From an uncultured Lachnospiraceae bacterium (GTDB taxonomy: Bacteria > Bacillota > Clostridia > Lachnospirales > Lachnospiraceae): a stretch of 16,092 nucleotides of DNA. Positions 11,862-13,492 of this stretch are shown here, piece by piece. Location: contig CANTGP010000019.1 in assembly GCA_947653315.1 (NCBI GenBank), positions 1 to 16,092 on the forward strand. Direction: 5' to 3'. Within the stretch, counting starts at the first letter, position 1. Each line of letters starts with the position of its first letter. The notes under the pieces were generated by a model. The model saw only the letters and a program-made list of their open reading frames with translations, ran no database searches and was not told the origin of the DNA. The translations under genes and the position numbers were made by a program.

Positions 11862-12125
11862 ATGGTCGAAAAAGTTATGGAGATCCAATTGCCGTCGGGA
11901 CTGGAAGCGAGACCGGTAGCAGTTTTGGTACAGGTGGCGAGCCGGCATGACTGTACGGTGTACATCGAATCAGCAGGCAAAAAGGTTAACGCCAAAAGTA
12001 TCATGGGCATGATGAGCCTTGGACTGGACAGCGGGGAGAAAGTGACGGTCATTGCGGACGGCACGGACGAACAGCAGGCGGTGGAAGACATCGAGGCATA
12101 CCTGATCAAAGGAAAAGTGAGTTAA
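11862..12125 (+). CDS. crh: Crh-like HPr paralogue (His15 replaced by Glu)
   Basis: The 87-residue protein is colinear with HPr, with core GLEARPVAVLVQVAS and KKVNAKSIMGMMSLGL. The phosphotransfer His15 of HPr is Glu15 here, while the regulatory Ser46 and its surroundings are intact. In B. subtilis Crh has Gln at this position; Crh cannot accept phosphate from enzyme I but is phosphorylated on Ser46 by HprK and acts as a corepressor of CcpA. Gene order after rapZ and whiA matches the B. subtilis yvcJ-yvcK-yvcL-crh cluster minus yvcK. ATG 11862 is chosen for the AAGGAGGAG ribosome binding site (from 11848); an upstream in-frame ATG at 11820 lies inside whiA. The symbol is given by analogy; CcpA binding is inferred. 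Confidence 0.85.
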   Translation: MVEKVMEIQLPSGLEARPVAVLVQVASRHDCTVYIESAGKKVNAKSIMGMMSLGLDSGEKVTVIADGTDEQQAVEDIEAYLIKGKVS

Positions 12126-12163: not shown

Positions 12164-12190
12164 GGAGCATCGTTTCGGTGCTCCTGTTTT
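12164..12190 (+). terminator. Intrinsic terminator of the hprK-crh cluster
   Basis: GGAGCATCG (12164-12172) and CGGTGCTCC (12176-12184) form a 9-bp stem with one G-U pair around TTT, followed by TGTTTT. It lies 39 nt after the crh stop codon and directly before the repeat array. Confidence 0.85.
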
Positions 12191-12192
12191 AT

Positions 12193-12276
12193 GCACACGG
12201 GCCCCCAAAGGAAGAAGCCAGCAAAGCTGGCGGGTGCTCGGCGCGCGAGCAGGGGAAAGGTTTCCCCTGCTCGATT
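12193..12276. repeat. Structured tandem repeat, unit 1 (type A)
   Basis: This 84-nt unit contains a first hairpin, GCCAGC-AAA-GCTGGC (12217-12231). An outer stem CGGGC/GCTCG flanks it, with the purine stretch AAAGGAAGAA on its 5' side. A second, perfect 13-bp hairpin is CGAGCAGGGGAAA/TTTCCCCTGCTCG (12246-12258, 12261-12273). Unit 3 is nearly identical. No ribosome binding site or start supports translation. Confidence 0.85.
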
Positions 12277-12360
12277 GCACAGCCCCGTGCAAAGGAAGAT
12301 GCCGCTAAAGCGGCGCACGGGTCGCGCGGCGGGTAGGGAAGGGGTCTTCCCTACCCGATT
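12277..12360. repeat. Structured tandem repeat, unit 2 (type B)
   Basis: This unit has the same 84-nt length and architecture as unit 1 but a different sequence. An outer stem CCCGTGC/GCACGGG encloses AAAGGAAGAT and the hairpin GCCGC-TAAA-GCGGC. A 12-bp hairpin, CGGGTAGGGAAG/CTTCCCTACCCG (12330-12341, 12346-12357), follows. Compared with type A, several paired positions have changed on both arms, keeping the pairing. Confidence 0.85.
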
Positions 12361-12445
12361 ATACACGGGCCCCCAAAGGAAGAAGCCGGCAAAGCTGGCG
12401 GGTGCCCGGCGCGCGAGCAGGGGAAAGGCTTTCCCCTGCTCGATT
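12361..12445. repeat. Structured tandem repeat, unit 3 (type A)
   Basis: This is a near-copy of unit 1, 85 nt long because of one extra C in the loop of the long hairpin. The inner hairpin reads GCCGGC-AAA-GCTGGC (12385-12399), a G-U in place of A-U. The outer stem is CGGGC/GCCCG, a G-C in place of the G-U of unit 1. The long hairpin is at 12414-12426 and 12430-12442. Confidence 0.85.
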
Positions 12446-12466
12446 GCACAGCCCCGTGCAGGGGAA
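12446..12466. repeat. Truncated fourth repeat unit (type B)
   Basis: The first 15 nt, GCACAGCCCCGTGCA, are identical to the start of unit 2, and the similarity then fades within a few bases. It shows that the array is an A-B-A-B series cut off shortly before the next gene. Confidence 0.7.
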
Positions 12467-12511: not shown

Positions 12512-13492
12512 ATGGAGGCAAAAAAAATACTTTTTGTATATAATCCCCGTGCGGGGAAGGCTAAAATACAGAGCAGGTTATGTGATATTATAGACATCTT
12601 TGCAAAAGCAGGCTGTGAGATTACGGTGTATCCCACCCAAAAGGAGGGAGACGCGGCCTGGGCAGTCAGGAATAAGAAGAAGCGCTATGACCTTTTGGTA
12701 TGCAGCGGCGGGGACGGTACGCTGGACGAGACGGTAAACGGTATGATAAAAAGTTCCAAACGGATTCCCATCGGCTACATTCCCGCGGGCAGCACGAACG
12801 ATTTTGCCATGAGTCTGGGGCTGCCTAAGGATATGTGTAAGGCTGCGGAGGTTATTGTGTCGGGCAGGGATTATCCCTGTGACATCGGGACCTTTAACGA
12901 AGCATGCTTTGTCTATATTGCCGCTTTCGGGCTTTTTACGGACGTTTCTTACGAAACCAGCCAGCAGATTAAAAACGTGCTCGGGCATATGGCATACCTG
13001 CTGGAAGGCGTAAAACGGATTTCTTCCATCAAATCCTATGCCCTGAAAGTGCGTTATTTGGAATCTTCCAATCCGGGAACCGATGGGCAGCAGGCGGGAG
13101 CGCAGGTAAAAATGCCATTGGAAATACGGATACCCATGGAAACACAGGAGAAAACCATAGAAGGCGACTTTATTTTCGGGATGGTAACAAATTCCTTATC
13201 CGTGGGCGGCTTCAAGCGTATTACCGGCAAATATGTGGAACTGGACGACGGGGAATTTGAAGTGACGTTAATCAAAAAACCTTCCAATCCGTTGGAAATC
13301 AATACCATTCTCGCTGCGCTGATTAACCGGAATATCAATACGGATTATATGTACTGTTTTAAGACAAGGGAGATTACGTTTGAGTCGGAAGAAGGGATTC
13401 CGTGGACCACGGACGGGGAGTTCGGGGGAAGCCACAGAAATGTGCATATTGAAAATATGAAACAGGCGGTGACAATCAGGGTACCGGAGTAG
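12512..13492 (+). CDS. Diacylglycerol kinase-family lipid kinase (YegS/BmrU/DgkB-like)
   Basis: The 326-residue protein belongs to the soluble, membrane-associated lipid kinase family that includes B. subtilis DgkB. DgkB phosphorylates diacylglycerol to phosphatidate, recycling lipid left over from lipoteichoic acid synthesis. Visible motifs are FVYNPRAGK (8-16), the nucleotide-binding SGGDGTLDE (65-73), PAGSTNDFA (91-99), and the C-terminal DGEF motifs (DDGEFEV and TDGEFGG). It starts at ATG 12512 after CGGAGGTG with 6-nt spacing. It follows the repeat array and has no obvious promoter of its own; with a terminator at 12164-12190, its transcription start probably lies in or near the array. 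The exact lipid substrate (diacylglycerol, sphingoid base or other) cannot be fixed from sequence. Confidence 0.9.
   Translation: MEAKKILFVYNPRAGKAKIQSRLCDIIDIFAKAGCEITVYPTQKEGDAAWAVRNKKKRYDLLVCSGGDGTLDETVNGMIKSSKRIPIGYIPAGSTNDFAMSLGLPKDMCKAAEVIVSGRDYPCDIGTFNEACFVYIAAFGLFTDVSYETSQQIKNVLGHMAYLLEGVKRISSIKSYALKVRYLESSNPGTDGQQAGAQVKMPLEIRIPMETQEKTIEGDFIFGMVTNSLSVGGFKRITGKYVELDDGEFEVTLIKKPSNPLEINTILAALINRNINTDYMYCFKTREITFESEEGIPWTTDGEFGGSHRNVHIENMKQAVTIRVPE

Follow-up and report, generated by a model that had tools for sequence, protein, structure and literature searches.

What is the array of structured repeats that lies directly behind the crh gene in a 16,092-nucleotide stretch of DNA from an uncultured Lachnospiraceae bacterium (the whole stretch is here called the window), and how did it come to lie there? 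The window codes for an HPr kinase, RapZ, WhiA and an HPr-like protein (crh) and, further downstream, for a YegS-like kinase and a class II aldolase. As the initial annotation had it, the array follows the crh terminator, whose T-tract it directly adjoins, but its first base is 12192, one before the 12193 given there. The units were placed by R1, a covariance model built from 34 copies of several species, at E-values of 9e-17 to 1.5e-15 (Table 1), those of A1 and B1 being values for two of the 34 sequences that built the model. The alternating array of repeats of about 84 nt is thereby confirmed, with the order A-B-A-truncated B and three full units of 84, 84 and 85 nt before the truncated fourth.

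Table 1. The array and its neighbors in the window.
Feature	Position	Strand	Evidence and remarks
crh / HPr-like gene, upstream of the array	11862..12125	+	PF00381, E 9e-29
crh intrinsic terminator, target site	12164..12191	+	Stem 12164-12184, tail TGTTTTA 12185-12191; sequence
Unit A1	12192..12275	+	R1, 89.7 bits, E 8.6e-17
Parts of unit A1	5' domain 12192-12245; purine bulge 12207-12216; domain-VI-like hairpin 12246-12273, then AT	+	
Unit B1	12276..12359	+	R1, 89.7 bits, E 8.7e-17
Parts of unit B1	5' domain 12276-12329; domain-VI-like hairpin 12330-12357, then AT	+	
Unit A2	12360..12444	+	R1, 83.5 bits, E 1.5e-15; inverted repeat
Domain-VI-like hairpin of unit A2	about 12414-12442	+	
Unit B2, 3'-truncated remnant	12445..12466	+	Direct repeat family; BLAST 12444-12466, E 0.02
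YegS-like diacylglycerol kinase gene, downstream, outside the element	12512..13492	+	PF00781, E 5e-32

The three full units fold better than shuffled sequences (z of -5.3, -4.4 and -3.6; as good a fold in 0, 0 and 1 of 200 shuffles), and the four double-sided changes reported for the long hairpin (A-T/G-C, C-G/T-A, G-C/A-T and A-T/G-C) are indeed present. A2 starts with TATACA and not with TGCACA. A1 and A2 are 95% identical over 73 nt, and the ABAB order may therefore be that of a duplicated AB dimer. The purine stretch that had been called invariant is the same throughout the window but only RGGAAR-like across the family. The two mechanically derived ORFs crossing the array (92 and 176 aa) have no Pfam match, so no intron-encoded reverse transcriptase (RT) is found there. 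In agreement with the earlier failure to recognize a named family, the window has no Rfam match at gathering score and no Rfam intron match, only chance-level matches at E up to 5.

Each unit is laid out as TGCRCA, stem 1 (9 bp), a purine bulge, stem 2 (5 bp), GCGCG, hairpin 3 (11-12 bp) and GAT. The 5' hairpin domain thus comprises a TGCRC..GCGCG closing pair, the strongly covarying 9-bp stem, the one-sided purine bulge and the inner 5-bp hairpin. Among 34 sequences, 93.9% of the cells pair and 17 of the 30 pairs change on both sides (slid controls, at most 49%). With 107 distinct sequences the both-sided changes extend to 28 of the 30 pairs, and none of 500 shuffles of this alignment reached any of five measures, the alignment being fitted to the model and so leaning toward structure. 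Stem 1 is largely exchanged between types with pairing kept, while one closing pair is non-standard in 27 of the 34 sequences, mostly A-C. All such pair and mismatch counts describe related copies, not independent events. On the sense strand of hairpin 3, G-T mismatches outnumber A-C by 68 to 18 cells over 11 pairs, an excess that comes mostly from two pairs near the loop and excludes the loop-closing pair (there A-C 46, G-T 2). Stems 1 and 2, with about equal numbers (G-T 40, A-C 47), give no sign of RNA-level selection. The purine bulge was also considered as a domain IVa-like binding site for an intron protein, and no support for this was seen.

By employing BLAST on the host draft (508 contigs, 81% complete), we found at least 44 A-type places with unit A (E<=1e-7) and at least 42 B-type places with unit B (E<=1e-13). 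Together these make 86 non-overlapping places, some of them partial, where the counts per query are lower bounds and a copy split across two contig ends would count twice. Several host contigs, e.g. C73, C37, C335, C136, C398 and C302, start inside a unit. The repeat probably limits the host assembly, and copies at contig ends imply that it may break assemblies. Out of 61 related genomes 10 had BLAST matches, and nine of these, the host among them, belong to the host's genus. R1 matches were found in at least 53 of 299 Lachnospiraceae genomes (one per genus, E<=1e-3) and in at least 3 of 391 class-wide genomes (E<=1e-4), all three inside Lachnospiraceae; these are lower bounds obtained with strict filters. 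Named records with the hairpin pattern were, among the matches listed, mostly titled Lachnospiraceae, a few others being titled Clostridium, Ruminococcus, Clostridiaceae and 'Bacillus sp.' MAG. In these searches the element occurs chiefly in a single bacterial family of gut and rumen, the Lachnospiraceae. The phage and plasmid sequences searched gave no match, and one IMG/VR contig did. In the parts of the openly accessible literature covered by our search, nothing was found that describes this family or group IIC derivatives devoid of a core.

That the element is mobile is well supported. Reading the crh region by eye in the whiA loci of 15 genus members, we found that in G000 and G005 an 84-nt unit immediately adjoins the crh terminator, that G009 has a variant unit a few bases past it, and that G003 has a unit behind a second terminator after crh. 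Ten others showed no unit behind crh, and the relatives that have the crh terminator with no 84-nt unit behind it include G001, G002, G007 and G010. At this one locus compared, the site is hence mostly unoccupied in related species. Identical copies also occur at different places. G337 has nine units with nine different upstream flanks, three of the nine being identical (median identity 0.967), and in G019 one identical 90-nt unit stands behind three different terminators, the other two copies retrieved sharing flanks with these. The copies in G212 are older, with a median identity of 0.79 (best 0.977). What had been described as a palindromic repeat family is accordingly a dispersed mobile repeat with copies across the host draft and related genera.

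The sites of insertion have a common denominator. Among 222 distinct arrays, 189 kept their 5' end intact and had 60 nt of sequence upstream, and 166 of these (87.8%) abut the hairpin and T-tract of an intrinsic terminator, a score reached by 0.9% of 2000 random positions and 14.3% of 3424 TTTTA sites (loci L134-L253). The 23 arrays failing the score include evident missed terminators and members of a second subtype. The left flank is T-rich and then A, with A directly before the unit in 87% of the 172 arrays that start with TGYNCA, and the base right after the array is T in 93% of the 132 arrays with no further unit following. Beyond this single T the right flank is near-random, and consequently no target-site duplication was seen when the flanks of occupied sites were compared. 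The GAT^TGC junction inside arrays is explained by repeated insertion at A^T. Where an array has at least two units (n=50), the first unit outscores the last (Wilcoxon p 2.4e-5), also when all units are full (n=30, p 1.9e-4). The upstream ORF is co-directional in 109 of the 131 arrays with flanking ORFs within 500 nt. Downstream of these 109 the ORF runs the same way in 76 cases and the opposite way in 33, which is near the background of 197 to 104. An overlap with a mechanically derived ORF longer than 150 aa is seen in 28 of the 222 arrays. The element thus lies mostly in sense orientation directly behind intrinsic terminators.

Some loci carry solitary parts of units. L161 and L231 have a solitary 3' hairpin and T-run just after an ORF, and L193 has a longer 3' part followed by a T-run; these hairpins look like terminators built from remnants. 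A polarity of 3' truncation could be read as a sign of target-primed synthesis, a reading that we reject because selection to keep the terminator explains the polarity and because the loci had been picked by their 3' hairpin. No autonomous larger forms were present around solitary half-units in the nine loci inspected.

Group IIC (bacterial-C) introns share this target. They insert directly after terminators according to the available text of PMC8919778, and splice almost only by hydrolysis according to that of PMC7161350. In the fetched loci, where group IIC introns were identified by Rfam RF02001, all 16 examined intron starts with upstream sequence (14 RF02001, 2 RF02003) stood directly behind a terminator, by a score somewhat looser than that for the element arrays. 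Out of 33 loosely matched domain V sites 17 were of IIC type (then TGTGAGAGG). Sixteen of these end in CTACTCGAT, and the next base is T in 14 of the 16. The domain VI hairpin of these introns has the 3' sequence ..CCTACTCGAT, and other group II classes in the fetched loci have different 3' ends. Hairpin 3 of the element has the same 3' strand as intron domain VI, the same last bases (CTACTCGAT^T) and the same next T. A single-base difference lies opposite the branch-site A, which is bulged in introns, i.e. in the three intron domain VI hairpins that were folded, but takes part in a pair in the element (T-A in 89, C-G in 5 of 99); the almost exclusively hydrolytic splicing of group IIC introns lessens the weight of this difference.

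A second model, R2, represents only the 3' hairpin of the element. In 145 kb of group II intron loci it gave six matches (E 1.3e-4 to 0.26), all on domain VI sites of the form GTGTGAGAGG..CTACTCGAT and one (L284) also confirmed by Rfam, against none in 140 kb of control loci, while it missed 15 of the 16 tallied CTACTCGAT intron ends. R1 gave eight matches in the same intron loci, the six best of which fall on the sites of R2 (five distinct introns, E 0.06-0.27).

The differences are equally clear. A group IIC intron (RF02001/RF00029) is about 2 kb long and the element 84 nt; with two hairpin domains only, the element is devoid of the domain I-V core, of an RT gene and of a bulged branch-site A in its domain-VI-like hairpin. 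Group IIC introns have the 5' end consensus GTGYG. The element instead starts with TGCRCA, and only the closing helix is similar. Chance would hardly give the two the same target, orientation, 3' end and hairpin; common descent with group IIC introns, or mimicry of them, is the best reading and in our judgment a highly probable one. Among the examined loci no autonomous or intermediate form was found. The end CYACTCGAT occurs at 237 sites in 1.34 Mb of loci, 24 of which are outside model matches, with about 20 expected by chance. Of these 24, 13 are regular units that lie at the edge of a locus or in loci added once the scan with the model was complete, and no intermediate intron form is among them. 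The repeats constitute a terminator-targeting family of mobile mini-elements with a group IIC intron tail. Both the fixed site at terminator T-tracts and the intron-like 3' end had been missed in the initial annotation.

Having neither core nor gene, the element needs a helper; lacking domain V and an RT gene, it should be unable to splice or insert alone. The account to which we give slightly better than even chances is that the array consists of nested copies of a core-less, non-autonomous relative of group IIC introns, about 84 nt long and mobilized in trans, with a group IIC RT/ribozyme particle as its presumed natural helper. Element RNA would arise by read-through of the terminator, a particle of group IIC type would take up the unit RNA by recognizing the shared 3' end, and the unit would be inserted at another terminator, at TTTTTA^T; tandem arrays would build by repeated insertion on the terminator-proximal side. 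Its relation to group IIC introns would then resemble that of SINEs to LINEs. A more tentative variant, possible but clearly short of an even chance, holds that the units are bacterial mini-introns, mobile RNAs of which hardly more than the two ends is left, with core and RT supplied in trans by a full group IIC intron or the remnant of one.

We infer, rather than observe, the trans-mobilization by group IIC introns, since the presence of the one does not track that of the other across genera and G019 has identical copies with no group II RT over the cut-off. RF02001 is found in 21 of 53 element-bearing genera and in 87 of 246 others (Fisher p 0.64, no association). Group II RT matches, weak ones included, are found in 34 of the 53 and 133 of the 246 (p 0.22); of these 167 matches, no more than 85 score above the curated cut-off. 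Eighteen element-bearing genera have neither RF02001 nor a group II RT match, and G019, rated 100% complete, also has no RF02001 match. It is conceivable that old copies have survived the helper that moved them and that drafts miss multi-copy introns, but G019, with identical copies in an assembly rated complete, speaks against this. Other RTs did not fare better as partners. The sole RT of G019 has UG26 as its best match, and relatives of it occur in 33 of 299 genera, of which only G019, G095 and G149 bear the element. RTs in general are present in 27 of 42 genomes, i.e. in 14 of 20 with and 13 of 22 without the element. In a separate observation, an RT-5 RNA (RF03026) lies just upstream of a UG26-type RT gene in L331:2138-3514, followed by a 310-aa ORF.

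Alternatively, the unit may be a MITE- or REP-like DNA element whose mover is a transposase or recombinase with a preference for terminator hairpins, e.g. a single-strand Y1 enzyme, the intron-like 3' end being captured or convergent. Such an origin, which we regard as rather unlikely, would suit the hairpin ends, the single-strand-like target, the high copy number and the balance of G-T and A-C mismatches in stems 1 and 2, and RAYT-like Y1 genes do occur in G019 and G337. Y1 transposases are nevertheless not associated with the element (26 of 42 genomes positive; 12 of 20 with and 14 of 22 without it), eight RAYT-like loci gave no R1 match and hence have no element nearby, and the match of the 3' end to introns is left unexplained. 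Since 8 of the 20 tested genomes with the element lack Y1 genes and no target duplication was seen, a DNA transposase looks the less likely mover, and a Y1 transposase is no better supported than trans-mobilization by group IIC introns. The earlier suggestion of an RNA element or palindromic family, perhaps spread by an unseen transposase, therefore stands as to the dispersed mobile repeat and loses ground as to the enzyme. Selection for a function at terminators, as an insulator or as an RNA-processing or protein-binding site on read-through transcripts, would account for the position, the conserved structure and the better preservation of the terminator-proximal unit. It appears improbable to us given that 10 of 15 species, read by eye, have no unit at the one orthologous site compared, that identical copies at unrelated sites point to recent spread, and that there is no bias toward co-directional downstream genes. 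Mere local tandem duplication of a palindromic sequence, to which the near-identity of the two A units could be attributed, is refuted by copies elsewhere in the genome and across 53 of 299 genera and retains a negligible probability. The initial annotation would have fallen back on such a duplication had structured homologs and covariation been lacking, and both were found.

Under the preferred account of a core-less group IIC relative moved in trans, the closest parallel is found in eukaryotes. SINEs are short, have no gene, and share the 3' end and target of an autonomous retroelement. The element has these traits in common with them, with the differences that it is prokaryotic and that its partner is only inferred; it could perhaps be called a bacterial SINE by analogy. 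If it is mobilized in trans by group IIC machinery, it would be a short non-autonomous bacterial retroelement with a defined target and would open to test the old question of whether a group II core acts on intron ends from another RNA. If the mini-intron reading were true, it would be a living example of the core-in-trans reduction proposed between group II and spliceosomal introns. Leaving the trans step aside, the units still form a large family of repeats in bacteria of gut and rumen, one that has no Rfam entry.

Among known bacterial repeats, REP elements and BIMEs with their RAYTs are likewise high-copy intergenic palindromic repeats in arrays. The element, unlike REPs as described in the available part of PMC2817692, has no GTAG-type head before a simple palindrome, and whereas REPs accompany a RAYT gene, it is absent near the RAYT-like loci. 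Pneumococcal BOX, RUP and SPRITE and other MITE-like repeats are also modular small interspersed repeats; going by their descriptions in the available parts of PMC3049150 and PMC10969869, the element is set apart by another host group, no target duplication seen and a fixed post-terminator position. The target-site duplication that is a feature of DDE MITEs was not seen in its flanks either.

Lastly, the second subtype, represented by L118, L124, L128, L129, L130, L131, L132 and L155, has the same 5' domain and a different 3' hairpin. A long hairpin mostly precedes this 5' domain, and a CCCTCCGGGGGA or CGCTCCGCGAGGA motif is found in several members. As read by eye, the crh terminator of G011 (L101) seems to bear this subtype instead of an 84-nt unit. 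In L131, the 3' arm of the long hairpin looks like an inverted copy of a terminator end and T-tract.
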